Virus record (IMG/VR): IMGVR_UViG_3300032208_000153 | Location: 1 to 50,186 of that record | From: a virus | Length of the DNA: 50,186 nucleotides | Strand: one strand, 5' to 3' | Part shown: positions 15,507 to 42,691 of the stretch, piece after piece | Position numbering within the stretch: the stretch's first letter is position 1 | Layout: each line of letters opens with the position of its first letter | The notes under the pieces: model-generated | Database searches by the model: none | Told to the model about the DNA's origin: nothing | Seen by the model: only the letters and a program-made list of their open reading frames with translations | Program-made: the position numbers and the translations under genes

Positions 15507-18500
15507 TTATGCCTTTGTAACGTTGGATACGATTGTAACTGTCACAGTTTGAGTATTTGTGACATCTGATGTCAACGCAATATTTAGTTGCGCTTCTGCG
15601 TTTGCACTAAATGTAATAGTCGGATCAATTAGAGCAACACCAGTTCTGACCTTACCATATTCTGTGTGGAAGACATCAGAACCATCATCGATAATACCAA
15701 ACTCAATAAATTCTTTGTCTCCTGTAGAAGTATTGTGTGCAACAACTGTGGTCTTTGCTCCCTTAGAAATTGTGCTATTGTAGATAATAGTGTTTGCATT
15801 ATCTACAGTTCCTTTAACCAGAGTAAAGGCATCGGAACGAATTAAAGTTTGTGCTAGTTCTAACTCTTTTAGTTCTGCATCAAAAACTTTTACTCCATTA
15901 AATGTTCCTGTTCCAAAACCAATATTGAAATAAACATCACCTTGGTTGTCTAATCTCAATACTGGGTCAATATTTAAACCAGAAGACAAACCAACATCAA
16001 AGAACTGCTTTGTTGAATGTAAGAAAGTTGTATCTGATCTTGTATTGTCTAATGTTGTAGCAGCATTATCAATTGTCAGGAGAGATGCAGTAATTTCAAA
16101 TTCATCTGTAGTTACAGACCTAATAGTATCGATTGAGTAGAAATCTAATCCTGCTGTAGTTAACTGTAAGGTATTGTTGTTATCATTATAGAAGAAGAGG
16201 ATATTTTCATTTGCCCCAGGTGCAGTTTCTGGAATAATGAAAGTATTTTGGTCAACGTCTTTAACACCACCAAGAGAACCCCAGTTCGCTCCATCATATC
16301 CTTCAAACTGACTATCAGTTGAATTAAACCTAATAGCACCTTGTACTTCAATTCCTCTATCTAAAGATGAACCAGCAGGAAGAACAAGTGAAGTAGAAGA
16401 TTGAATTACAGTCTTCTTGCCAGTATTTGGTGCAAAGACAAGATCGCTAACATCTGTAGACACTACATTGTCTGCAAGTCTCAGATCATTGTTGACTCTT
16501 AGTGGCAAGTTACCTAGAGGACCGACTCTGAGTTCTGAGACATCCTCGAATGTTATGGGTGCTACTGCTAGTGAATGCCAACGTAGTGTTGATGTTCCAT
16601 TAATAAAATCATTGCCAGTAGTATCAACTGGTTCAGTACCATCAGAAGCAGTAGTACCTCCAGTGATTACAAGGTATAAATTATTTCTGAATTTTAAATA
16701 TTCTCCTGCAGTTACAGGATTATTGGAAACCCAATTTCTGTAAGTTGGATTTGCAAGGTTTGGAGACTGCAGAGTTTTAGCACTTTCAAAAGAGACATGT
16801 GATTGTAAAACTCGAATAGAATTTACATTATCATTAATAAACCACAGGGTATTATCATTTGCACCAGGGGTTTCTTCTGCTAGAATAGTAGTGTTACCAT
16901 CTAAGTCTCTGACACCACCAAGAGAAGACCATGATGTAGTAGTTGCATTATATCCTTCGTATTGATCTGTATCAGTATTGAATCTAATAGCACCATTCGC
17001 TGCGTCTGATCCAGATGGTCTTTGTGCAGTATTACCTTTTGGTAGAATTAAAGCACTAGATCCAGTAACTTTTAAAAGTCTATTGGAAGCACATTGAATA
17101 TCAATATCATTGACACCAAGTGCATTAATAGTTGCACCTGTAATTCTTAATGCACCGTTAGAATCAAAATAGTTTGTTGTTTTAATGAATCCACTGGTGG
17201 TTAAACTACCATTTGTTCCATCTACAGATAGAGCTGCATTTGCAGCAGAAATAGCAGCAGAGAAGTTTACATTTGGAGAAGTTACTTCTAAATCAGTAGT
17301 TCCATTATCAATCAATGGAACACTCATTGTAGTGTTTACTGTTACATCACTTGCAGTTAGATTTGTGCTTGTGTTGTTAGTAATTGTTGCATTGGTTGTC
17401 TGTAGATTTGTTGTGGTAATTCTTTCCTCAACATTATCAAGTTTAACTGGAGTAGATGTATCAATGCTTGCAACAACAAAAGATGCTCCAGAACCAAATA
17501 CTTTTGGATTGTTTAAATCTACTGTCAGTAAAATTTCGTCGTTATCATAACCACCTTCGTTTGCATGTGTATCAGATGCAGTAGCACAATAATAATACAG
17601 ACTTGGTGTGGCATCTGTTACTTTAATAGTTAAAGAGTTGGTTGTTCTAACAACTCCATCTGTATACTCTACACCTCTAATAGTTAAATCTAACCCAGTT
17701 GCTGTAATTAGAGCACTATTTGAAATGGTAATTGTAGTTCCATTAACAACACTTTCAACCGTAGTATTAGTTGGAATTCCAGAACCTGTATTTACTATAA
17801 TTGCCATTCCTGGTAAGATACCAGCAGAAGAACTTACAGTAACAGTTTTAGAACCTGCGGTGATATCAGCAGTAATATTTTCAATTAAACTTGGACCCCA
17901 AATACCATCTCTAAATGTACTCAATGCAAAAACATGAGATGAGTTAGAACCATCACTCAAATCAAAAGTATACGTATTTCCAGAATATAATGTAATAGAT
18001 GGGTTTGCATCTCCATCTAGTAAATAACGATAACCAGTCTCAACAGTATTTGTTGTATAGTCAGTCGAACCTCCTTCTACTTGGATATCATCTCCAGCAG
18101 TTAGGATCATCCCAGCAACTACAATATAATCAATATTTCCACCAACTTCTTTTACAGTAAGAACATCATAGAAATTAGTTCCGTCGCTAGATGGTGTTAC
18201 TCTATCGGAATCTGTGATAGTTCCTGCAGCAGGTGGTGTTGCAAAATCAATCTTTACTGTTGATTCATTTGTAACAGCAATAGAAATTGGAGAAACTAAA
18301 TCAAATGCATTTACAGTTAAAGTATCAGTTTCTTCATATGATAGTCCAGGATTATCAACAGAGATACTATCAATTTCTCCTAGATTTTGAATCTCAAATT
18401 CAAAAGCAGGTGATCCAATACCAAACGGAGGAGTAAATGTTACATTAGTAACACCAGAAGCAGTTACCTGTGAGTTTAGCGTTACAATATTTCCATTAAC

Positions 18501-20348
18501 TTGAGATACAGTTGTTCCAGCATTAAGTGTTCCACCTCCAGAGTTTACTGTTACTACAGATCCTAGTAAAATGCCAGTCGCATCATCTACTTCAACTTCA
18601 TCTGTAGATCCACTGGAAGTGAAATCAAGTGTTGTAGCACCAGGAGTGGTTGGTGGATCTGATAATGTAATTTGTGTTGGACTATCTACAGAAGCAACTG
18701 TTGTTCCTGGTGTCAAAGCTCCTGTTCCTGAAGGATCTTCAATAATCGACATTCCAGGAATAATATTAGCAGTTGAAGCTAAAGATAACGTTGTTCCTCC
18801 TCCCAGTGTTGCTGCTACTCCTTGTACATTGCCTCTAAAATATGCAGTAGTAGTTACAGCAACAGGGAAAGTTAGAGTTTCGCCAACTTGATATGAATTT
18901 CCTTTTGTATCAAAAACAATATTAATAACACTACTTGGATTTGATGTAATTGTATATACAAATCCAGAACCTCCCTTATTGCCTACATCAGAATCTAATA
19001 CTCCTAAAGTATCTCCAGTTTCATACCCAGATCCTTGTGTAGTGATGTTAACATCACTAATGACACCATTATATGTAAACGTACCTAAGGTATACTGGAA
19101 TCCAGCACCATTTGGTAAATCAGATGAAGATGCTTCTAAAACATCACCTGTTTTATATCCAGATCCCTGTACAACTTGGGTAACAGATGATACTTGACCG
19201 CTAGCATTGGTTTCAATATCTACAATCATTCCATTGCCATACTGACCAATAGATCCTGTGGTTACAGTAATAGCTGCTCCCATGCCATCGTGAGCAGAAC
19301 AGTTGTATTTGATGTTTCCTGTTGGAGCGTCTGGACTAATAATAAAGTCCATAAATGCCCCAGCAGTTCCAGGACTACCAGACTGAACCATTGAATATAA
19401 TAATGGATCCAGTAAATTTCCATCACTCTGTTGGAATACCAACGGATGAGTTGATACAGAAGTGTCACTTAGATCAAATCTGTAAGTATTTCCTCTAATG
19501 AGAGTTAGAGTATCTTGGGTTACTCCATTAATCTGATATACTTCGTTTGGTGGAGGAGTTCCAGGATTTGAAACAGCTGTTAGAGTATATGTTGTAGTTG
19601 GAACGTTGAACAGACTAACGGAGTTAAATTGGAAATCGGTATCATATCCCGATCCAGCTGTAATTGATGCTGCAATAGTAGTATTACCAATAATACTAAT
19701 ATCTGCTCTAGCACCTGCACCACTACCTGTTAGTGTTTGTAGTGGGACATTATTGAAAATATTAAACGTACTATCATATGAAGAACCACCGTCTGTGATA
19801 TCTCCTGCGATTCCTTCTACCTCAAAGTTAATCGCAGTTCCAGATGAACTTCCGCCAACTAATGAAACTCCATTGTAAGTACCAGGAGTATATCCTTCAC
19901 CATCTTCAGTTACTGTTCCTGTAAATTCTGTTACTACAATATTTCCTGTAGCATTTCTACCAGTACCACCAAAAAGAGATACTCCACCATATGAACCAGC
20001 ATCATAATTAGAACCGCCACTAGCGACAAGAAGTCCTCCAGTTGCGATAACATTTTTCTCTAATGCAATATCGATGAAGTTAACAAAGGTGCTTGCTGTT
20101 AGATTTGCTAATTTTTTGCTATTATATACAAATCCAAGAACACCATTTTCTGGTCTATATAAACCCAAGCTTGGTTCATTATCAAATGCCAAAGATGGCA
20201 GTGGTTTTGTACCATCACCAATTTTTAAGTTTCCTGTAGCAAGATCGCTACCACCAGCACTGATGGCAAACAATTGAGATCCAATCTCATTGATCTTTAC
20301 CCTTTGCTGCTCAAAGGTATCGGTTCTGGCGACATTAATTGCTGGCAT
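15507..20348 (-). CDS. Fibre protein with two cupredoxin-like domains (1613 aa)
   Basis: The N-terminus (INVARTDTFEQQRVKINEIG) resembles the start of T4 gp10/gp9-type connector proteins (KINENF/KINSDF), so it may fill the gp9 or gp10 slot. In order: GxGY-type beta modules (about 100-250); a cupredoxin-like domain (about 265-365) with ligands H301, C350, H353 and M356 (YNCSAHDGM); more GxGY modules; and two or three PGM/T-x-V modules (IIPGMSII, LLGSVVTV). A second cupredoxin-like domain (about 770-940; H805, C921, H928) has another such module inserted in it. Duplicated LILPKGNTAQRP.../LVLPAGSSLDR... modules lie near 1096 and 1318. The C-terminal beta domain (KTTVVAHNTSTGDKEFIEFG onward) loosely recalls the C-terminus of T4 gp9. 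It starts 14 bases inside the 72-aa gene, implying translational coupling. Fibre/pin role inferred. Confidence 0.83.
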   Translation of the reverse strand: MPAINVARTDTFEQQRVKINEIGSQLFAISAGGSDLATGNLKIGDGTKPLPSLAFDNEPSLGLYRPENGVLGFVYNSKKLANLTASTFVNFIDIALEKNVIATGGLLVASGGSNYDAGSYGGVSLFGGTGRNATGNIVVTEFTGTVTEDGEGYTPGTYNGVSLVGGSSSGTAINFEVEGIAGDITDGGSSYDSTFNIFNNVPLQTLTGSGAGARADISIIGNTTIAASITAGSGYDTDFQFNSVSLFNVPTTTYTLTAVSNPGTPPPNEVYQINGVTQDTLTLIRGNTYRFDLSDTSVSTHPLVFQQSDGNLLDPLLYSMVQSGSPGTAGAFMDFIISPDAPTGNIKYNCSAHDGMGAAITVTTGSIGQYGNGMIVDIETNASGQVSSVTQVVQGSGYKTGDVLEASSSDLPNGAGFQYTLGTFTYNGVISDVNITTQGSGYETGDTLGVLDSDVGNKGGSGFVYTITSNPSSVINIVFDTKGNSYQVGETLTFPVAVTTTAYFRGNVQGVAATLGGGTTLSLASTANIIPGMSIIEDPSGTGALTPGTTVASVDSPTQITLSDPPTTPGATTLDFTSSGSTDEVEVDDATGILLGSVVTVNSGGGTLNAGTTVSQVNGNIVTLNSQVTASGVTNVTFTPPFGIGSPAFEFEIQNLGEIDSISVDNPGLSYEETDTLTVNAFDLVSPISIAVTNESTVKIDFATPPAAGTITDSDRVTPSSDGTNFYDVLTVKEVGGNIDYIVVAGMILTAGDDIQVEGGSTDYTTNTVETGYRYLLDGDANPSITLYSGNTYTFDLSDGSNSSHVFALSTFRDGIWGPSLIENITADITAGSKTVTVSSSAGILPGMAIIVNTGSGIPTNTTVESVVNGTTITISNSALITATGLDLTIRGVEYTDGVVRTTNSLTIKVTDATPSLYYYCATASDTHANEGGYDNDEILLTVDLNNPKVFGSGASFVVASIDTSTPVKLDNVEERITTTNLQTTNATITNNTSTNLTASDVTVNTTMSVPLIDNGTTDLEVTSPNVNFSAAISAANAALSVDGTNGSLTTSGFIKTTNYFDSNGALRITGATINALGVNDIDIQCASNRLLKVTGSSALILPKGNTAQRPSGSDAANGAIRFNTDTDQYEGYNATTTSWSSLGGVRDLDGNTTILAEETPGANDNTLWFINDNVNSIRVLQSHVSFESAKTLQSPNLANPTYRNWVSNNPVTAGEYLKFRNNLYLVITGGTTASDGTEPVDTTGNDFINGTSTLRWHSLAVAPITFEDVSELRVGPLGNLPLRVNNDLRLADNVVSTDVSDLVFAPNTGKKTVIQSSTSLVLPAGSSLDRGIEVQGAIRFNSTDSQFEGYDGANWGSLGGVKDVDQNTFIIPETAPGANENILFFYNDNNNTLQLTTAGLDFYSIDTIRSVTTDEFEITASLLTIDNAATTLDNTRSDTTFLHSTKQFFDVGLSSGLNIDPVLRLDNQGDVYFNIGFGTGTFNGVKVFDAELKELELAQTLIRSDAFTLVKGTVDNANTIIYNSTISKGAKTTVVAHNTSTGDKEFIEFGIIDDGSDVFHTEYGKVRTGVALIDPTITFSANAEAQLNIALTSDVTNTQTVTVTIVSNVTKA
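17529..18041 (-). other. Second cupredoxin-like domain, with a nested module
   Basis: Residues about 770-940 of the 1613-aa protein. Strands SGNTYTFDLSDGSNSSHVF and LYYYCATASDTHANEGG frame the fold (H805, C921, H928). The Cys-to-His loop is longer than in the first copy and has no Met. Between the strands sits an ILPGMAIIVNTGSG-type module of about 65 residues that occurs elsewhere in the same protein. Confidence 0.5.
19254..19556 (-). other. Cupredoxin-like domain with a complete copper ligand set
   Basis: Residues about 265-365 of the 1613-aa protein. LTLIRGNTYRFDLSD and STHPLVFQQSDG are followed by YNCSAHDGMGAAITV. H301, C350, H353 and M356 fit the type-1 copper pattern, with C-x2-H-x2-M spacing as in amicyanin. 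Confidence 0.6.
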
Positions 20349-30760: not shown

Positions 30761-30767
30761 TATTTAG
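30761..30767 (-). promoter_or_regulatory. Third late motif CTAAATA upstream of gp8
   Basis: The minus strand reads CTAAATA, and its TAA is the stop codon of gp7. Together with the pair at 30743-30756 it makes a tandem of three late motifs in 25 bases. Confidence 0.6.
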
Positions 30768-33700
30768 TCAATTGAATATGGTATGATGTCAGAACCACTT
30801 TGGATGGTAGTGGATCCGCTAATAACGGTACATCCATTAAATGTGGTTGGGGTCTTAGATGTGTAACGAATCACACCTCTATTGGATCCAGAACCATGGA
30901 ATATGTATCCAGATGCTGGGAAGTAATCTGTATTTTCTACAGTAATATTTCCAAGAGAAGCAATTGGTCCGCTACTAAACGTAGTTGTTGCTGGATTATT
31001 GAAAGATGGAATACCTAGATTGAATTTCTCTCCCGCTAGTGTGTAGTTGGAGAATCCACGTTCTTCTAAATCTCTAATACCGAAAGATACAAAGAGTTTT
31101 GAGAATTCAGCAATTGAAACTCCACCACCAGGCATAAATCCGCTATCTTTGGAAACATAGTCCCAAGAAGAAATATTTGCACCTACATTACCAACACTAT
31201 ACTTACCGATATAAGAAGTTTGTTCTTCTTCTAAGATATTACGTGCAAGAATAACCGTTCCATCTCTTTGAGTTACTGACTTATCGAGAACAGTAACAAA
31301 TCCATTAATTCTAGTCTTAATTGGATTTGAGAATTTGATTTTCTCAATAAAGTAATCAACAAATCCGCCAGGTGGTGTGAAGAACAGAAGTTCTGATGAT
31401 TTTTCTAGAGCAGAAACAACTTCAGTCTCAACCTGAATAACAGAAGTTTCAACTGTTGCAACTGGTCTAAAGTTAGTAAAGTCGGAAACAATATTATTTC
31501 CACCAGCAGGAACATCTAGAGTGACCTGTTGAGAGATAGAAGAAATAGACTCTACATTTACAGAAACCTGCAATTCGGTAACACGATTTACAGTAGTTTC
31601 CATTTCAAATGTTGCTGGAGCAACAAATTGTCTGGTTAGCTTGTTCTCTGCTTTTCCAACTGGAATAGAATTTGTAACAATTGTTTCACTAGTGAAGGAA
31701 GTTACACCACCGAATGCAAGACTTACGAAATCTTCAATCTGTCTAATGAATGTTCCAGGATTCCAGTTCTTCTCTGTAGTGTTATCAAATCCTCTAGTTA
31801 CGTTGAGGAATCTATCACTTCTCTTTCTTGGATAGTATACAACTTCATCACCAACCATAAGTTTGCCATGACTGGTGAACTTATCAGTATCTGGAATATA
31901 AACAATATGGTCTCCAATGTTTAGAGGTGCCTGTAGATATGCTCCAGGTGCTCTGTAGACGGCATTATCTAAGAAGGTATTGTCAAGTTCTCTCTGAATT
32001 GTCTGAACAATAAATCTATCGGTAGACATTTGAGAGATGCTGATAACATCTTCTGCACGTACATCTACAACACTCTGGATGTATCTTTCTGCTTCTTCTG
32101 CTTGTCCAGCATAGTAAGGTCCAAGATAATAAAAATGTTGTCTGTATAAAGGTGGTACATCTTCTGGCATGACAGAAGCACCATCTTCAATCGACTCTGG
32201 GTAAATCTCTTGCTCAATTTGGTCTTGAACATTTTTTACAGAATCTAGAACAACAGCAGTGAGAAGTGCCTGTTCTGGTGGTGGTAGTTGAATGACATCA
32301 ACAGTAGAAATAACCCTGAGTCCCTGATTAATTACGGACTGTACACCCAACTTGACAAGTGATACCTTGATATCATCTTGTTTCTTGACATCATACTTTC
32401 TGGTAACAACTACCTTAGGTGCTTCTGTGTAACCAGATCCACCAGATACGAGTTGAATACCTTGGATTTCTCCACCAGCAACAATTACTTGTGCTCTTGC
32501 ACCACCACCATTTCCATCTTTTGGAACAAACTTAAGTTGTGGTGGAGTTCTATATCCAAATGCAGTGGGTCTATAGAACTTATAAGTTGTAGTTCCATCT
32601 GCATTTGCAATCTCTTCTACAATTCTCTCATTCCAGTTGAGAGCAGTAACAACACCATTTGTAATGACAGCAGAAACACTAAGACCTTCGCCTAATGTCT
32701 TACCATTATAAGATGAGACACCAAATGATCCATAGATGTCATTACCAGCATCACCGTCTAAACGGTTATCTCTGGTGTAAACTTCATTTGGAACTGAACT
32801 GATAGTTCTGTATCTAGATTCACCTTCAATCTTAACTTGATCTCCTGGTGCAAGTCTGAAGAATCCTTTTCTTTGTAGAAGATCATTAGTTCTCTTTACA
32901 TCTTCAGCAAAGTACGACTTATCTGTTCTAGACAAATAATCATAATTCTTGGTTAATGTAAGACTATCTGTTGCAGCAAAAGCAAATGTACTAACTGCAG
33001 TAGCACCCATAGTTTGAACATATGTTGTTCTAGAAGCATCATAATCAAGATTGTTAGAGTACATCTTGATCATAACTTGGTTTGCACCAACTAGTTTCCA
33101 ATCATAGATGGAACCGATACCATAAACTCCATTGGAGTCTTCTTGATAAATGTAGAATTTATCTTTAGTCGTTAATGCCCAATCACTGGTAACTGCAAAA
33201 CCATTAAATCTAGCACTTATTCCAGATCCATTTACTTCAAGTGTGTAATCATACAGATATCCAGAAGTATCAAAATCATGGAATGTTACTGTAGATTCTA
33301 AGTCTCTTCCATAACAAAGTCTGATATCAACAACATCTTCTTCACGTATTGAATACTTCTTGAATGTAATTGATGCACCTGCAATTTCATATGCAGTTAT
33401 TGGTTTTTGAATTACACCATTGACAATAACAATCAAATAGTTTGAATCGCTAATATTTACGATCTTATCTTCGTCTACACTTACAATCAAGAAAGGACCA
33501 ACTCTTTCACCATTAACTAGTGACTTATCAATAGTATAACGTTTGTAGTTACCAATATTGGTGGCAAATAATCTCTCGACCTGTGATGGTTCTTGAATTG
33601 TCTTTGCAGACAAATCTTGATCCCAGATGGGAGGAGCAGTAAACTTGATTAAGTTTGGCGTGACTGTCTTATCAACCCAATAAGAATCAAATGCTGGTTC

Positions 33701-36700
33701 GTCTGGGTTGTACTTAGGACGTTGAATTACACCATTAAGTGCAACCATCAAATGCTCATCTGTTTCAGTTAGAGAAACTGGTGATCCATCATCATCCCAA
33801 TACAATTCAAATTCTGAAGTTTCATTGTCAATAAAGTCAGGTAATGACTTAGTAGTTGATGTATCTAAGATCATTGCGTCATTAATAATGTCGGCAAAAG
33901 ATGATAGAGAAGAAACTACATTTTCACACTCTCCACTAACCAGTTGATTATCTGCTATAATATCATAGTTAGCATAAGGAACTAGTCTTGTGTAGTATCC
34001 AGGTCTCGTTGGATTCTGACTAGTTGGTTGAATGACATTAGGACCTGTATTGAAAATAGTTTCAACGATATCATAATAAGTATTCAGTGCAGATTCTACA
34101 CCAGCACAAGTAGGAGATAAGAGATCAACAATTACTTCTGGATCATTTACAGGAGAAATTAATGTATACTTACTGCCACTCGATAGATCTTGACGCATCG
34201 CTTGAACACAAAGTTCAGTAAGAACTTTTTTGTATATTGATTTTGTCTCAACAAACTCACCAACAATATAATTGAGTTTGCTACCAACAAAGTATAGTTC
34301 AGCAAATTCTACTAGTTTTTGGTTTCCGCCAAATCTCAAGCTATAAAGTGCAGCATCTAAGAGATAACCAATATCTCTACCACACTTTGTAGTTAAGTTG
34401 TTTTCACCTAAAGTTCTATGTGTTAATTGCAAACCAACTGGTATTCTATCAATAGGACCTTGATTTTCTAACTCTACAGAAAGTACAGTTCCATTTTCAT
34501 CATATTCTACTTCTGCTGTAGGTAAATCGGTTGTTATTGTAGGATTGCTTACGACTACCGATGCTGGTACATTTGGATCATATCCATAACCACCATCAAT
34601 AACACCAACTGTTGTTTCTACGGCAAGTTTTACAGTTGCATCCAATTCAATAATTTGATCTTGATTCAAGAGAGACTTAATATAAACTTCAGTTTGGTTT
34701 GGATCTACAGTCTGCATTCCTTGTCCACCATCAACAATTTCTAGTCGATCGACTCTCTTTCCAAGAGCTACTCTTGCTTCTCCAGGTGTTGGAGTTCCAG
34801 TATCTAATGGGTTTGTATCAACATTTACCAGATAGTTTGAATATCTTGGACCATTAGGATCGCCAACCAATGCTTCAATAAAGCTTACACTAAGTACACC
34901 AAAGTTATCATAAATTGTTCCACTATTTTCTGGTTGATTTAATCTAAAGTAGACATATTCGTCTTGTGCTTCTGGTGGAAGTGCAATATCGTAATTTTTG
35001 AGAGCACCACCATCTGGGTCTTCGTCTTCTAACCCAATTACAACTCCAAGATCTACCCAACTATTTTCATCTGGTGCAGTTGTGGGGTCAGATACAATTT
35101 GATATGCCAATCTCAGTCTTTCATCGCCAGAATCACCTTCTGGTGTTTCTCCACCGTTAGTATCATTACCACGAATAGCAAAAACTCTAACTACTTGGAT
35201 GCTTCTGGTATCATATGGTTTAAAGATACAGTATCTTTCTCCACCATCAGTATCACCAAATCTTAAGTGGGTGCCACCAATATTGAATCCACCTGTTTCT
35301 CCAACACCAGTACCATTTTGAGCAATGGTAGTTCCAGGTCCAAATTCATATACGTTGTCAGCAGTTGTTGTCGAGAAACCTTCACCACTGATTAAGATAC
35401 TTGTTAGTTCACCATTTTCAATTTCAGCGACCGCATAAACATTTTCCATGTCGCCAGGGAAAGAGATAATTGGTGGTTGAGTATAACCAGAACCACCATC
35501 TAAAATATCTACTCTCTTGATATAACCTTTATATTCTAGTCTAGCAATAATTGCCTCATTGGATCCATGACGATTTCCTAGAACTGCTGGAGCAGAAGCA
35601 CTTTCTGTGACGATAACTTCTGGTTCTGTTTCAAAACCATCGCCTTTATTTGTGATAGTAACATCATCACTAACATAAATTCTGTTATCAAAACTGAAAC
35701 TAGCATTTAAACGCTTGGTATCACCCCAATCTAGGTTAGGGAATACATCAGCACCCCAATTCAATGCATAGTCTGTAATATAATTTCTATTCTTTTCAAT
35801 TAGATTGGATGCATCATAGAATGTTCCATTATTAATACCACTGAAACTAAACGTAACCTGATCTAAACCTGCGAATACAGGAGGAACAGTTAAAGTAGTT
35901 CCAGGTGGTAATGCATAAGTATTTGGAGGAATGACAGCTCCAGTTCCTGTTGGCAAATTAAGATCTCCAGATTGCTCACCACTTAGGTAAGTAGTACCAG
36001 GACCAGCAGAACCTCCAGGTGCCGTGCTACTATTAAACAATGCTGTTCCAGAGATTCTTAACTGTGTATCTGAAATAATTTCAATAACTCTGTAACCAGA
36101 AGACAGTGGAATTGCATTGCCAGAACTAACAACTGCACCTAGTGCAATATTTGATGTATCGGAAATAGTAATGATATCACTGCCAGCAGTATAAACAGCG
36201 CCAAGAGCAATCCAATCCCAGTTTCTGATTGCTAATTTTGCTAATCTAACAACATATTGGAATAAATCATTGATCTGTGTATTTTGTCTAGAATAAGAAG
36301 TCGCAAACAGTTCTGCATAATCAACTGTCTTAATATTACCACCAAATCTCAAATCATGTTCCAGTGCTGCACAAAGATTTCTGATATCTGCTTGTACAGC
36401 ACCTTCAATCGCTGTCCATGGAATAATAGAGTTTGCAATGTCTGTAGCATACTTTGCTTCAAACCATCCAATAGATTCTGCAACAATAAAATCAACATTC
36501 AATAGGATCTGATTTGCTGCATCTAACCATCTGCCATTTCTTTGGTAGAAGTTTCTAATCTTTCTGAAATGCTTATCATTGAATGCATCATTTTTAAATT
36601 CAAGATAACGAATAAGAATCTGTTGTTCTTGAATATCCTGACCTTCAACTACAGTAGCACCTAGAGGTGCAGTAGCAAAAGTAATCTTATTTCCAGAAAC

Positions 36701-39700
36701 TGTATATGCAATTTCAGGTTCTTGGATAACGCCATCAATAGTTACAATAAGATTTTCTGCACTATGAGGATTAAATGGCAATCCTGAACTGTTGAGCAAG
36801 GTAAATTCAGTTCTTCCAAGAACAACAGTTTCACTTTGGTATCCATCAAGTGCTTCTTGTAGAGTAACAACAAAAGCGTTGGTTTCGTTGAAATTGAATT
36901 CCTCAACAGCAACAGATCCACTACCTTTAATAGCACGGTAATCATCAACAGACAGAATAGATTGTGTGAGTTGTCTTCTTGTGCTTTCTACGGTTACTTT
37001 ATTTTTCTCAGAATCCCATAGTTGTACAATACTGAAATGAGATGCCTTTGGCATCTTTTCTGGCATCGTAATGCCATCCTCTACAACGGGATCAATAATT
37101 ACTTCACCAAATACTTTAAATCCTGCAGGGTGTGTAGTTTCTTTTACTAACTCTCTCCAGTTGTCAATAGTTGTTCTAGATTTAACAACGTAAGAGTAAT
37201 CTTGATAGAAGAAAGAGTCTGTTAGTCTCTGATTAGATACACCTAACTTACCTCTATCAGATCTAAAGGAACCTGTATTGTCAGAGAAAGGTTGAATGTC
37301 GAGATCAAATACAGAAACGAAAGTCTGTTTGATGGTTGCGCTAGTTTTTGATACTTTTGCAACAATAGGTAAATCATTTCTAAACTTACCTTTGATCTTA
37401 GAAACTTTGAGGATATTTGATCCTACCCTCCAGTCTCTTACAATACCTTCAGCAATAATAGTATTGCCTTCAGTCTGAGTTACAACCTCTCCGTTTAGAT
37501 AATTACTGTCACCATAACCTTTGACTGCAAATGCATAACTACCAGTGTACTCAGATAATAATGTTTTGTCCTTGTGGAAAGCACTTCCATTTTTGACAAT
37601 ACTTACATTCTTTGGACGACCAATTCTACTTCCTTGAGCAAACAGTCTTACATCAGATTCGATAATAGCAATTGTAGGTGCCTTAGTGTAATCTGTTCCT
37701 TTGTTGGTTACAAAAATGTCTAAGATTTCGCCATTTCTAGAAGTAATGCCAAACTCGGCATCAATACCATCTCCATCAAGAATAACTACCTTTGGTTTGC
37801 TATAATTTGATCCATTGCTGTTTACCTTTACTCCAGTAATAGTATTTGACAAAGAATCAAATAGAACTGTTGCATCTGCTTGATTTTCTGTGCTTAGATA
37901 AGCACCAACTACAATAGGAGATTTTTTATAGTTATCTCCAATATTCTGTACAGATACACTATTAATCTCACCTACTGCAAATCTTCCTGTAGTAGTATAT
38001 GAAATTTGACCAGATCCATCCCATTGAGGATTACTCTTTAGAGAATAGCAGAATCTGGTAGGTGTGACATAATTTACAATTTGTCTGGAAGAAAGAGGAT
38101 CTTGTACAACTCTTAGATATGAGTTGTTGTTACTAATCGTTCCATTCTTATCAAAATAGAAATAGTTAGAGAATCTAGACTCTTGCTTCTCATCATATTG
38201 ATTGGAAGCAATTGCAGGACCAAATCCAAACTTCATCTCAACAAAAGATCCAGGAGCTCCTTGTACAACAGAACTTTCTGTCTTTTCTACTGGAACTATG
38301 TTATAATTACCACTTGGACTAAAGTCTAGGTTTGCTCCAGTGAGTGAGTTATCTGAAGTATCGAATCTATACTTATAGTATTCTTGTACTTCGATGATTG
38401 GATTTACAGACCATTCAGAAACAAAGTCATTAGGTGCAGTAGTATTAAAGATAGACAGTGATGGATCTAGTTTAAATTCAAATCTATTTTCTGGTTCAGT
38501 TGCATTAATAATATTGACAAACCTTTGAGGTGTGCTGTCATCAAAGAAAGTAGTAGTTTCTGTAATTCCTTGTAGTGTTGACAGAGATTGTGTTGAAGGA
38601 TAAACTACCAATAAAGACTGTCTCTCTTTGTTGTAAGTAACAGATTCGCAACCATTTACAACGAAGTTTGCATCAAAACGATATTCACCATCATACAATG
38701 ATACAGGTGCGCCATCGTAGTGATCAACTGCTTCTGTTCCTTCTTGTCCTCTTTCTACAATCAGAGTACCACCTTGGACTTGATTATTTGTAACAGAGAC
38801 AATCTTGACAATCTCATCATCAATTTTTAGTAAATCGTCTTCGCAGTATTCTACTGCACTCTTAACAAAGATCTTTGTTGCAGTAGAAGATACACTAACG
38901 TGATCAATAAAGAACCTTAGTGTTTGTGGTGAACTTCCAGCAACCTTTCCTAATGGCGCATCATCTACACCAAGGATATCGCCTCTCTTGTAACCATCGC
39001 CACCTTCAGAGATTTGAATATCGGAGATGTAACCAGTTACATCACCTGTGTTGAATGGACTTACTACAATATTTGCAGTAGCACCAGTTCCTGATCCACC
39101 AGTTAGTGGGATATTGGTGTATGAACCAACCTCATACAAATTACCAGCATTAAGAATAATGCCTCTACCAATACCACTATAATTTACAGTAGTTTCATAT
39201 CTTGGTGTTCTGAGTGTCAACTCTTGATAAATTCTTTTTCTTACAAAGTAAGTTCTTGTCTTTGTTGCATCATCTGGGTTGATAGAAACATCAATTACAT
39301 CTCCAATACCTAGTTTATGTTCTCCTACTGTTTCAACTAGGGCGACATTTGAATCAATATCAAATGGAACTAGTCCATCACTTAGGTATTCGACAGAATC
39401 AATCCTTGCACCAGAAGTATCGGAAAGAGAATTACTCTTTAAGAAATATCCAGGTAGAGCATCTTGACCTTCAAATGTTCCTGAAGTGACTTTTACAATT
39501 ACTGTATTGCCTGCAATGACAGACTCTAATACTTCACCTTGTGCTGCTTCAGTGATAACACCATCGGTAAGTGTTAGAATAGATCCTTGTTCAAATGAAG
39601 AGACTTTATCAATTGTAAGTCTGACTACTTTAATGTCAGTAGAAAATGTTGCACTACCATCAAATGTTCCATTGACATCTTTTACTAGAATGGTATTGTC

Positions 39701-42691
39701 TGCTCTTACATCACCAACAATTGTTCCAAAAGCACCAGATCCTGGTTGTCTAAGGAAATCATCGGCAAAGACATAAGAATCTCTGGTAATAACCAACTTA
39801 ACAACTTTTGATTCAAAACTTTGTAAGTAATTGACAGATTTTCCTTTAACTGAACTTACAGACGCTTCTACGCCATTACCATCTGTTCCGAGGTTATCAA
39901 ACACTAGGGAAGATCCTACATTGAATGAATCAGAAGAAGATTCTACCTCAACAGAGTCTACACTTCCAGACTCTAGATCCTTGATAGTTGCATTGACACC
40001 ACCACCATTACCTTCGATGCCAGGAACAAACAGTCTCTTGACATTAGAAGAAATGTTTGATTGATTTAAATTAGACGCATAGTTAGATTCTACAGGAAGA
40101 GAGTAAAAATTGTCTCCAATAATATAAGGGAACTGTGGAACCTGTTGATCGTTAATGGTAACAAAGTATGCATAGACTCCATTTGGATAATCTGGAGTTA
40201 CACAATATCTGCCATTATTTTGATCGAGAGTTCCTGTCTTATGGCGATATTCGTAGTCTTGAATAAAATCACCAAGTGGATAGTCCTGTGTGCTAGGTCC
40301 AAAAGATCTAGTTTGTTTTAAAATATAACTCGAAGTCATCCTAATAATAGGAGACTGTGTATCTAATGGATTCTCATGTGCAAATGGTCCATAGATTGGG
40401 TTGCCATCATAAGCAAAACCAATGATAGGAGAATGAACCTTAACTGCTGGTTCTACTCCAAGTGAACTCAAGTTATCATTGAGTCTAACACGAAGAGATT
40501 TAGGATTAGCAACATGAGCATATCCATACTCTAATGACTTATTAAAGTTCTCGAAGACAAAACCATTATTGTCATCTAGAGAATTTTGTAGTCTAGAATA
40601 CCTATCTTTGACCCATTCTGTCAATTCTGGAATAGCAGTAGCATCTCTACCAACTGGAACAATAGTAACTCTTACATTGTCCTGTGAATAGAAACTACCT
40701 TCGTTTACTAGATCAAATCCAACAATTTCACCATCAGATACAATAGCAGTATATTCTGCTAAACGACCTTGACCAGCAAGATCACTAATAATAACTGCTG
40801 GAGGTGATGAATAATACTGACCAGGATTGTCAATGATCAAATCAGTAATTCTACCAAAAGTAACTGTTGCTCTTACTTCAGCACCACGACCAGAAGTGAT
40901 TTCAACTCTAGGAGTCTTGCCATATAGTCCTGGTTCTAATACTTCGATAGATTCTACAAATTGCCCAGCAAGTTTTGCTACTGCTCTTCCAGCAACATCA
41001 TTAACTAGAACATATGGTGCGTTCTTGTATCCAATACCTTGGTTATTAACTGTAATTTTTTCTAGTTTTCCGAATCTTACAGTATCAGTATCCTTGTAAC
41101 TATAAATTCTAGTTCCGTTCAATAAAACACCAGTATCAAGAGATGGAGTCTTATAAACCTCTGTTGTTGATGTTGCTTCTTTTCTAATAAGTTTTAGAAC
41201 TTTTTGATCGGCAAGATTGCCAGGAATACTAGTTACGTTTTCGAGAATAGGATATGATGGGTATCCAGAAGAAGCAATGTAATAGAACTGCTCATCCGAG
41301 AATACAGCAGACACATCAGTAGAAAGATTTGACAGACTACTAGTATAAGCGGGATTTGTTGGAGAGGTTGGTTTAGCATTCGTGTTTGATAGTAACCATC
41401 TAATTCCTTGAGGTGTAACTACTTTTGGATCAGTAGTTTCAAATCCTGGATTTGTGACCTCAATAGGATCACCAGTAAATGCATAAGGTTGTGCTTGGTT
41501 GGGAAGTAAATTGTAAACTAGTCCAAATACCAGTAGTTTTACATCCGAGTTACCAATAATGATAGGATCATAAACAGTAGTACCAGAAGGATGAATTACT
41601 GTTTGTTCTCTACTGCTAATTGTAAATTGTGTAATATTCTTATCATCAAATGTGATGGTTTCTCCGCCAATCAGAAGAGATCCTGTGCTTTCCCATCCTA
41701 GTGTAGATGCAACACTGATTCTATCTCCTACACCATCGGTAGATTCAATTTGTTTAGTTAACTCTGTCTTTGTAGTAAATTCAAAGATACCATTGATAGT
41801 TTCTGTTGCTAGGAACAGATTATATGTTACTTCACCATCAACGTTGGAGTCAAACCTGACATTATCGACTGTAGCAGAAGCAAAACCATTTCTAGGTCCT
41901 TCTTGCTGAACAACTACCTTTCCAATAAGATCTTTTACATCACCAGAGAGAACCTTGACACGAAGAGCATAACCTTGTGTCCAATCTGATGTAGATGACT
42001 TATAGGTAAAATCTGATGGATTGTAAACCTCAGGTCTATTCTCCTCTCCACCAGAGATTACAGTGTTGAATAAGAATTGAATAGATCTTTCAGTTCCTTT
42101 TGCTCTGTAGAACTCACCAATGTTTTTGATAAGTGTTCTTTTGTCTACAGCGTTCTTTAAATACTTTTCTGGGAACGATGCTAAGTATTGCTCCTCAAAA
42201 TTCTTGACCAGAGCATACAAGAATAGATTGCTGATGTTTTGTACTAGTTCTCCACCAGAGTGGGTCGATGCTTGACTAGTTATAAATTCTGTAGTATTAT
42301 AGAGGTCACCAAGTTTAGTATTACCACTAACACCACGGGAGACTTCTAAAAACTCAGTATCTGTTCTGCTCTTGTAAAAACAGATCTCTTTACCAATTTT
42401 GATGTACCCATTCTCTTCTGGGAATGAGCGAGCATCGGAAACAGTAATAGTAGTGGCAGAATCTGATAGGTTGCCTACCAGTTCGCTATTTTGCTCAAGT
42501 ACCTTGGACTCATAGTATCCAATGTCTGCATAAGTTGATAGATTATTAGCAATATCAAGGGCACCACCCTGAATCTCCAAGCTTTCATAATACTTGGTAA
42601 GGAAGTCACCAAAAAGCTCGTATTCAGTAGTAATAAACTCTGGTAATTGAGTCTCAATCAGAGTTGAAATTGAATTCTTGATTTTCGCCAT
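30764..42691 (-). CDS. gp7: Baseplate wedge protein gp7, hugely expanded (3975 aa)
   Basis: T4 gp7 is 1032 aa and forms the core of the wedge with gp6, gp8, gp10 and gp53. Here residues 183-215 (DKRTLIKNIGEFYRAKGTER, then IQFLFNTVI) match the T4 stretch DKRDAVARFFESR...KGIEASYKFLFKVLY. Residues about 1853-1862 (THPAGFKVFGE) match T4 VHPVGFGF. Some 1600 residues separate these blocks, against roughly 150 in T4. The added material includes EI-x-Y...RG modules (IGKEICFYKS, VGDEVVYYPRK), many GxGY beta modules from about 550 onward, and a YHYH-like domain at about 755-870. Two helical C-x-x-D-I modules lie near 2107 and 2770. The position between gp6 and gp8 confirms identity. ATG at 42691, five bases after gp6. 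Confidence 0.88.
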   Translation of the reverse strand: MAKIKNSISTLIETQLPEFITTEYELFGDFLTKYYESLEIQGGALDIANNLSTYADIGYYESKVLEQNSELVGNLSDSATTITVSDARSFPEENGYIKIGKEICFYKSRTDTEFLEVSRGVSGNTKLGDLYNTTEFITSQASTHSGGELVQNISNLFLYALVKNFEEQYLASFPEKYLKNAVDKRTLIKNIGEFYRAKGTERSIQFLFNTVISGGEENRPEVYNPSDFTYKSSTSDWTQGYALRVKVLSGDVKDLIGKVVVQQEGPRNGFASATVDNVRFDSNVDGEVTYNLFLATETINGIFEFTTKTELTKQIESTDGVGDRISVASTLGWESTGSLLIGGETITFDDKNITQFTISSREQTVIHPSGTTVYDPIIIGNSDVKLLVFGLVYNLLPNQAQPYAFTGDPIEVTNPGFETTDPKVVTPQGIRWLLSNTNAKPTSPTNPAYTSSLSNLSTDVSAVFSDEQFYYIASSGYPSYPILENVTSIPGNLADQKVLKLIRKEATSTTEVYKTPSLDTGVLLNGTRIYSYKDTDTVRFGKLEKITVNNQGIGYKNAPYVLVNDVAGRAVAKLAGQFVESIEVLEPGLYGKTPRVEITSGRGAEVRATVTFGRITDLIIDNPGQYYSSPPAVIISDLAGQGRLAEYTAIVSDGEIVGFDLVNEGSFYSQDNVRVTIVPVGRDATAIPELTEWVKDRYSRLQNSLDDNNGFVFENFNKSLEYGYAHVANPKSLRVRLNDNLSSLGVEPAVKVHSPIIGFAYDGNPIYGPFAHENPLDTQSPIIRMTSSYILKQTRSFGPSTQDYPLGDFIQDYEYRHKTGTLDQNNGRYCVTPDYPNGVYAYFVTINDQQVPQFPYIIGDNFYSLPVESNYASNLNQSNISSNVKRLFVPGIEGNGGGVNATIKDLESGSVDSVEVESSSDSFNVGSSLVFDNLGTDGNGVEASVSSVKGKSVNYLQSFESKVVKLVITRDSYVFADDFLRQPGSGAFGTIVGDVRADNTILVKDVNGTFDGSATFSTDIKVVRLTIDKVSSFEQGSILTLTDGVITEAAQGEVLESVIAGNTVIVKVTSGTFEGQDALPGYFLKSNSLSDTSGARIDSVEYLSDGLVPFDIDSNVALVETVGEHKLGIGDVIDVSINPDDATKTRTYFVRKRIYQELTLRTPRYETTVNYSGIGRGIILNAGNLYEVGSYTNIPLTGGSGTGATANIVVSPFNTGDVTGYISDIQISEGGDGYKRGDILGVDDAPLGKVAGSSPQTLRFFIDHVSVSSTATKIFVKSAVEYCEDDLLKIDDEIVKIVSVTNNQVQGGTLIVERGQEGTEAVDHYDGAPVSLYDGEYRFDANFVVNGCESVTYNKERQSLLVVYPSTQSLSTLQGITETTTFFDDSTPQRFVNIINATEPENRFEFKLDPSLSIFNTTAPNDFVSEWSVNPIIEVQEYYKYRFDTSDNSLTGANLDFSPSGNYNIVPVEKTESSVVQGAPGSFVEMKFGFGPAIASNQYDEKQESRFSNYFYFDKNGTISNNNSYLRVVQDPLSSRQIVNYVTPTRFCYSLKSNPQWDGSGQISYTTTGRFAVGEINSVSVQNIGDNYKKSPIVVGAYLSTENQADATVLFDSLSNTITGVKVNSNGSNYSKPKVVILDGDGIDAEFGITSRNGEILDIFVTNKGTDYTKAPTIAIIESDVRLFAQGSRIGRPKNVSIVKNGSAFHKDKTLLSEYTGSYAFAVKGYGDSNYLNGEVVTQTEGNTIIAEGIVRDWRVGSNILKVSKIKGKFRNDLPIVAKVSKTSATIKQTFVSVFDLDIQPFSDNTGSFRSDRGKLGVSNQRLTDSFFYQDYSYVVKSRTTIDNWRELVKETTHPAGFKVFGEVIIDPVVEDGITMPEKMPKASHFSIVQLWDSEKNKVTVESTRRQLTQSILSVDDYRAIKGSGSVAVEEFNFNETNAFVVTLQEALDGYQSETVVLGRTEFTLLNSSGLPFNPHSAENLIVTIDGVIQEPEIAYTVSGNKITFATAPLGATVVEGQDIQEQQILIRYLEFKNDAFNDKHFRKIRNFYQRNGRWLDAANQILLNVDFIVAESIGWFEAKYATDIANSIIPWTAIEGAVQADIRNLCAALEHDLRFGGNIKTVDYAELFATSYSRQNTQINDLFQYVVRLAKLAIRNWDWIALGAVYTAGSDIITISDTSNIALGAVVSSGNAIPLSSGYRVIEIISDTQLRISGTALFNSSTAPGGSAGPGTTYLSGEQSGDLNLPTGTGAVIPPNTYALPPGTTLTVPPVFAGLDQVTFSFSGINNGTFYDASNLIEKNRNYITDYALNWGADVFPNLDWGDTKRLNASFSFDNRIYVSDDVTITNKGDGFETEPEVIVTESASAPAVLGNRHGSNEAIIARLEYKGYIKRVDILDGGSGYTQPPIISFPGDMENVYAVAEIENGELTSILISGEGFSTTTADNVYEFGPGTTIAQNGTGVGETGGFNIGGTHLRFGDTDGGERYCIFKPYDTRSIQVVRVFAIRGNDTNGGETPEGDSGDERLRLAYQIVSDPTTAPDENSWVDLGVVIGLEDEDPDGGALKNYDIALPPEAQDEYVYFRLNQPENSGTIYDNFGVLSVSFIEALVGDPNGPRYSNYLVNVDTNPLDTGTPTPGEARVALGKRVDRLEIVDGGQGMQTVDPNQTEVYIKSLLNQDQIIELDATVKLAVETTVGVIDGGYGYDPNVPASVVVSNPTITTDLPTAEVEYDENGTVLSVELENQGPIDRIPVGLQLTHRTLGENNLTTKCGRDIGYLLDAALYSLRFGGNQKLVEFAELYFVGSKLNYIVGEFVETKSIYKKVLTELCVQAMRQDLSSGSKYTLISPVNDPEVIVDLLSPTCAGVESALNTYYDIVETIFNTGPNVIQPTSQNPTRPGYYTRLVPYANYDIIADNQLVSGECENVVSSLSSFADIINDAMILDTSTTKSLPDFIDNETSEFELYWDDDGSPVSLTETDEHLMVALNGVIQRPKYNPDEPAFDSYWVDKTVTPNLIKFTAPPIWDQDLSAKTIQEPSQVERLFATNIGNYKRYTIDKSLVNGERVGPFLIVSVDEDKIVNISDSNYLIVIVNGVIQKPITAYEIAGASITFKKYSIREEDVVDIRLCYGRDLESTVTFHDFDTSGYLYDYTLEVNGSGISARFNGFAVTSDWALTTKDKFYIYQEDSNGVYGIGSIYDWKLVGANQVMIKMYSNNLDYDASRTTYVQTMGATAVSTFAFAATDSLTLTKNYDYLSRTDKSYFAEDVKRTNDLLQRKGFFRLAPGDQVKIEGESRYRTISSVPNEVYTRDNRLDGDAGNDIYGSFGVSSYNGKTLGEGLSVSAVITNGVVTALNWNERIVEEIANADGTTTYKFYRPTAFGYRTPPQLKFVPKDGNGGGARAQVIVAGGEIQGIQLVSGGSGYTEAPKVVVTRKYDVKKQDDIKVSLVKLGVQSVINQGLRVISTVDVIQLPPPEQALLTAVVLDSVKNVQDQIEQEIYPESIEDGASVMPEDVPPLYRQHFYYLGPYYAGQAEEAERYIQSVVDVRAEDVISISQMSTDRFIVQTIQRELDNTFLDNAVYRAPGAYLQAPLNIGDHIVYIPDTDKFTSHGKLMVGDEVVYYPRKRSDRFLNVTRGFDNTTEKNWNPGTFIRQIEDFVSLAFGGVTSFTSETIVTNSIPVGKAENKLTRQFVAPATFEMETTVNRVTELQVSVNVESISSISQQVTLDVPAGGNNIVSDFTNFRPVATVETSVIQVETEVVSALEKSSELLFFTPPGGFVDYFIEKIKFSNPIKTRINGFVTVLDKSVTQRDGTVILARNILEEEQTSYIGKYSVGNVGANISSWDYVSKDSGFMPGGGVSIAEFSKLFVSFGIRDLEERGFSNYTLAGEKFNLGIPSFNNPATTTFSSGPIASLGNITVENTDYFPASGYIFHGSGSNRGVIRYTSKTPTTFNGCTVISGSTTIQSGSDIIPYSID
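40082..40429 (-). other. YHYH-like domain embedded in gp7
   Basis: Residues about 755-870 of gp7 read GFAYDGNPIYGPFAHENP, then LDQNNGRYCVTPDYPNGVYA, then YFVTINDQQVPQFPYIIGD. This is the signature order of the YHYH family (DG-x-P-IYG ... LD-x-x-NGR ... Y-P-x-G-x-Y-x-YF-x-T ... PY-x-x-G), which is known mostly from secreted or surface proteins. Confidence 0.65.

Follow-up and report, generated by a model that had tools for sequence, protein, structure and literature searches.

Does a tail-associated structural protein of a marine virus contain a copper site of the kind known from blue-copper proteins, and, if so, what would the metal do there? The question was raised by two short motifs, STHPLVF and YNCSAHDGM, in an open reading frame of a 50,186-base virus contig, which was analysed over its full length (hereafter, the window). 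A preliminary description of this DNA had read them as parts of a cupredoxin-like domain with a complete set of type-1 copper ligands. Both motifs are present in the orf, and residues H301, C350, H353 and M356 are exactly where that description put them. The domain had been assigned to positions 19254–19556; it is indeed located there, but its true extent is slightly larger (Table 1).

The host protein and its genomic context

The domain (domain 1) is a part of a 1613-aa protein that is matched by the phrog_6005 profile over most of its length (E~0, 1650 bits). The relatives of this protein belong to T4-like cyanophages. Its orthologues from cultured cyanophages are 40–46% identical to it, with alignments that cover as much as 99% of its length; the closest relative, in Synechococcus phage ACG-2014h, reaches 45.6% identity with 99% covered. 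The relatives are annotated as virion structural proteins and adjoin baseplate and tail-fibre genes. The baseplate/tail-fibre block around the 1613-aa protein has the same gene order as in cultured relatives: it includes baseplate wedge genes (gp6- and gp8-like) and the genes for a DUF4815 protein, a 72-aa structural protein, the 1613-aa protein, a 166-aa structural protein and, finally, a giant tail-fibre protein. Judging from the neighbouring gp6-like, gp8-like and tail-fibre genes, the protein is a candidate component of the baseplate or of a tail appendage. The presence of its cultured orthologues in the virion rests on their annotation and on virion proteomics, published for S-SM1, S-PM2 and Syn9 (PMC3037559).

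Table 1. Location of the cupredoxin-like domains and of the ligand positions of domain 1 in the window.
Feature	Position	Strand	Basis
Virion structural protein (phrog_6005), 1613 aa, contains the cupredoxin module	15507..20348	-	ORF
Cupredoxin domain 1, residues 251-366	19251..19598	-	AlphaFold2; Foldseek/VIA matches; plastocyanin profile match
H301, first His ligand position	19446..19448	-	H in 54/54 orthologues
C350, Cys ligand position	19299..19301	-	C in 54/54 orthologues, 39/39 in a separate set
H353, second His ligand position	19290..19292	-	H in 54/54 orthologues
M356, axial ligand position	19281..19283	-	Met in 51/54, Gln in 3/54 orthologues
Cupredoxin-like domain 2, residues ~763-940, with inserted beta module	17529..18062	-	HMM matches; AlphaFold2
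Inserted beta module of domain 2, residues ~820-891 (~70 residues)	17676..17891	-	VIA

The only histidines among residues 1–1183 are H301, H353, H805 and H928, all of them at cupredoxin ligand positions, and two of the three cysteines of the whole protein occupy the ligand positions of the two domains. The pattern C-x2-H-x2-[MLQ] was found only once among the twelve largest window proteins examined.

Fold of domain 1 and position of the ligand residues

The AlphaFold2 model of domain 1 consists of nine strands and has high scores (pLDDT 94.9, pTM 0.87). Among solved structures Foldseek ranked rusticyanin first (1rcy, E 5e-4) and the N-terminal cupredoxin domain of Hyphomicrobium Cu nitrite reductase second (2dv6, E 9e-4), with 14–24% identity for these two best matches; plastocyanin and multicopper oxidases were the other top PDB matches. 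The TM-scores were moderate (0.41–0.62), and the matches also included some entries with immunoglobulin-like or other beta-sandwich folds. Comparison by VIA-align gave Z 8.5 with a two-domain laccase (2.9 Å over 102 residues) and, for the whole domain, 8.2 with nitrite reductase, 7.3 with rusticyanin and 7.2 with Anabaena plastocyanin; these Z values are modest, and nearly all top rows are cupredoxins. The model can be assigned to the cupredoxin superfamily, which is characterised by a Greek-key beta-sandwich of 7–8 strands. Thus, the cupredoxin fold proposed in the preliminary description is borne out by the model and by two kinds of structural matches.

The model places H301 immediately ahead of a strand, C350 at the end of the penultimate strand, and H353 and M356 in the loop that leads to the last one, which is the canonical cupredoxin arrangement. 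The short C-x2-H-x2-M loop has the amicyanin spacing. A profile built from 16 diverse phage domains matched Anabaena plastocyanin with E 6e-5, and its H, C, H and M fell on the plastocyanin ligand residues; the invariance of the ligands within this profile is partly selected, because mostly intact copies were chosen for it. Domain 1 therefore contains the ligand set of type-1 copper proteins, a His and Cys-x(n)-His-x(n)-Met/Gln at the canonical positions, and this set, which had been claimed to be complete, is both in register with the plastocyanin ligands and conserved in orthologues.

Similarly to plastocyanin, pseudoazurin and amicyanin (PF00127), the phage domain is a Greek-key beta-sandwich with a His after strand 3 and with C-x2-H and then Met in the last loop. 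Unlike them, it has a longer strand 4–5 region and is embedded in a 1613-aa virion protein, without a signal peptide or a redox partner. Rusticyanin and the Hyphomicrobium nitrite reductase are periplasmic redox proteins, whereas the phage domain is a part of the virion. Sequence models recognise the family poorly. PF00127 (Copper-bind) had no significant match, reaching its gathering cut-off neither in domain 1 nor anywhere else in the window, and the domain 1 family stayed below the cut-off of every Pfam and NCBIfam model. In a wider set of 16 members, PF00127 matched three and PF13473 one, all weakly (E ~2–4e-4). Sequence comparison with the PDB revealed no solved phage protein related to domain 1.

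Conservation of the ligands in domain 1

To analyse conservation, only the N-terminus (residues 1–240) was used as the query for gathering orthologues. Domain 1 was found in 54 of 57 distinct orthologues and is missing from S-RSM4, S-PM2 and one further sequence (L109), so it is a removable module. The median pairwise identity of the 54 domains is 43%, and exactly seven positions are invariant: H301, C350, H353, T288, Y289, F291 and Y348. Loop residues next to the ligands vary freely, while the ligands do not. The three sequences with Gln at position 356 are mutually related; stellacyanin naturally uses Gln in the axial position (PMC4059628). In the separate set of 39 domains the Cys is found in all, and each of the other ligands in 38. 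Of the 76 distinct domains compared from the wider marine family, 75 fit the pattern of H plus C-x2-H-x2-M, and the remaining one (YTYCTVHSGM) also has an intact ligand set when read directly. Accordingly, loss of the ligands in most homologous domains, which the preliminary description had named as evidence against a copper site, is not observed: they are kept in nearly all.

The exception is one lineage (L006–L008), in which both His are replaced (by Y and D) while Cys, Met and the fold are retained, so that the cupredoxin fold is possible without the site. It should be mentioned that one alignment (A3) was built mostly from intact copies, so that the constancy of its ligand columns does not count as independent evidence; the tally made without such selection is 58/68. 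A first set of sequences had been found partly by patterns containing the ligands. Ascertainment bias can nevertheless be rejected as the source of the conservation, since the set gathered by the N-terminus gave the same result. A chance motif is likewise ruled out by the strict conservation of the ligands across diverged orthologous domains.

Domain 2 as an internal control

Domain 2 of the same protein was modelled by AlphaFold2 with pLDDT 92.5. Its cupredoxin part (model residues 37–215) matched rusticyanin (Z 6.2), nitrite reductase (5.7) and laccase (5.5) in VIA. The inserted beta module resembles domains from other phage virion proteins, with Z 9.2 to 8eci_1 of Arthrobacter phage Bridgette and 7.9 to the tail tube of phage Mystique. 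The ligand positions in the window copy are occupied by H805, C921, H928 and E931, and this C-x6-H-x2-E pattern is common to 20 of 50 orthologues. The axial Glu recalls red copper (nitrosocyanin), and the domain could contain a different metal site.

Domain 2 is under looser selection than domain 1, and its ligands are often missing. Among the 50 orthologues that could be classified, all 31 with the Cys also have the first His, versus six of the 19 that lack the Cys (p 8e-8, uncorrected for relatedness). After clustering at 60% identity, the His is present in 17/17 clusters with Cys versus 2/10 without. When the ligand columns were left out of the tree, each of the six inferred losses of the His fell within a clade that has lost the Cys. 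Thus, a His and a Cys more than 100 positions apart are lost as a unit, which is the behaviour expected of metal ligands. Taken together, the topology of the model, the profile in plastocyanin register and the joint loss of these two residues in domain 2 are consistent with a probable convergence of the four ligand residues on one metal-binding point.

We also considered whether the C-x2-H-x2-M form of domain 2 is restricted to proteins without domain 1. This was countered by one protein (L140) that carries both, and the frequencies (2/3 in proteins without domain 1 versus 1/46 with it, p 0.008, in related genomes) indicate at most a weak tendency.

Distribution and origin of the domain

Tblastn detected domain 1 in 59 phage records, including Synechococcus, Prochlorococcus, Pelagibacter and Methylophilales phages and single-cell marine viruses, and a broader query for the family yielded 178 records. 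A scan of IMG/VR revealed at least 600 stretches, with 597 relatives among the matches listed, so that hundreds of IMG/VR contigs contain the module. The carrier proteins are annotated as tail fibre, baseplate wedge or hypothetical, and several carriers in bacterial genomes look like prophage or phage tail-fibre genes. The same domain with the same ligand set occurs in the tail fibre-like protein of P-SSM2, in a structural protein of S-TIM5 and in tail fibres of Pelagibacter and Methylophilales phages. Members of this wider marine family have TM-scores of 0.74–0.84 (query) to domain 1 in BFVD and 30–53% sequence identity; the proteins that harbour these copies are not orthologous to the 1613-aa protein and have no annotation beyond tail fibre, hypothetical or baseplate.

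The preliminary description had called such a domain unexpected in a marine phage. It is apparently undescribed: in the open-access literature we found no paper on a cupredoxin, plastocyanin or copper domain in a phage tail, an earlier mention elsewhere being possible, and the domain may already carry automatic superfamily labels in databases. Yet the module itself is common in structural proteins of marine phages.

Recent capture of a host plastocyanin is unsupported, since Prochlorococcus plastocyanin is only weakly similar to the phage profile and the phage copies are far closer to one another. When host plastocyanin alone was compared profile to profile with the phage domain, the match had a probability of 20% (E 0.001 for one comparison). 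A marine Euryarchaeota lipoprotein-like protein (L172:3296-4303) has the same domain at its end (PHPFRLS...YYYCQNHGSMGG) and is a possible cellular source or relative.

Some further resemblances were observed. BFVD structural matches to the model of domain 1 include 'Beta-sandwich' proteins from Pithovirus and Marseillevirus metagenome genomes. In the window, a 3975-aa structural protein (30764-42691, minus strand) contains a weak third cupredoxin-like match without ligands at residues ~1417–1487 (E 2.7e-9, iterated profile), and its residues ~740–900 read by eye like a YHYH domain (GFAYDGNPIYGPFAH...).

Possible role of the putative copper site

The fold, the positions of the ligands, their conservation and the removable character of the module being established computationally, domain 1 is best described as a copper-competent cupredoxin domain within a virion protein. 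We consider it fairly probable that residues 251–366 form an intact mononuclear type-1-like copper site in a baseplate/tail-appendage protein of a T4-like marine cyanophage and that this site is structural or adhesive rather than electron-transferring; virus particles carrying the domain probably bind copper. Copper is preferred over zinc or iron because of the ligand set and because Gln is the only axial variant. The virion protein would bind one copper per chain, taken up either as Cu(I) in the cell or from sea water after lysis, and the metal would lock the ligand loop of an exposed beta-sandwich. By elimination, the likeliest job would be that of a metal-stabilised adhesive or spacer domain of a tail appendage, not of an electron carrier. 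A stabilising role is favoured for three reasons: neither the virion nor the window offers an evident redox partner, some relatives do without the module, and phages of non-photosynthetic hosts have it too. The proposed copper site is weakened by the L006–L008 lineage, which keeps the fold without both His, and by the weak profile-profile match to host plastocyanin. A further point against it is the scarcity of copper in the cytosol, the compartment in which phage proteins fold.

Alternatively, domain 1 could be a working blue-copper centre that performs redox chemistry at the host surface, as a trigger or an electron shuttle during adsorption. The type-1 set is indeed complete and strictly conserved, with a classic amicyanin-type loop, the axial variation is limited to Met and Gln and would tune the potential, and the hosts of related phages include photosynthetic cyanobacteria, which possess plastocyanin. 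However, the window contains no redox partner, some orthologues have lost the module and one lineage its ligands, and Pelagibacter and Methylophilales phages, whose hosts are non-photosynthetic, carry the same domain. We therefore regard this explanation as unlikely. It also seems improbable, to the same degree, that tails of marine cyanophages and pelagiphages carry redox-active type-1 copper and that redox or copper exchange at the host surface aids adsorption or triggering.

Cupredoxin-fold domains without metal exist (ephrin-like), and domain 1 might be another such beta-sandwich, serving in adhesion or as a spacer, with the four residues retained for packing. The survival of the fold with Y and D in L006–L008 and the frequent lack of ligands in domain 2 agree with this. 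On the other hand, residues distant in sequence vary together as a set, Met is swapped for Gln alone, and the ligands are fixed while the adjoining loop residues vary freely, which makes a metal-free domain quite unlikely.

Iron sites have been proposed in phage tail fibres, with a marine phage example, in the Ferrojan horse hypothesis (PMC11705849). A copper Trojan horse, in which the bound metal or a surface resembling a copper chelate docks on a metal-uptake receptor of the host, would follow this precedent and fit the abundance of the domain in marine phage tail-fibre proteins, but it is very unlikely, as no receptor is known, domain 1 lies in the interior of a 1613-aa chain, and type-1 sites, in contrast to the HxH iron sites of T4 gp37, are for the most part buried. 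The gp37 iron sites are six-His sites formed between three fibre chains and have no cupredoxin fold, Cys or Met.

Significance of a possible copper site in the virion

If copper is bound by domain 1, a very abundant class of marine viruses has a transition-metal centre in the virion, made by a domain family for which there is no Pfam or NCBIfam model. Such a centre would be a copper counterpart to the proposed link between iron and phages, and the copper dependence of cyanophage infection would be directly testable. The domain would also represent a compact blue-copper domain that is naturally folded in the cytosol. Even if the copper were purely structural, the fold of an electron-transfer metalloprotein would have been put to a quite different use.
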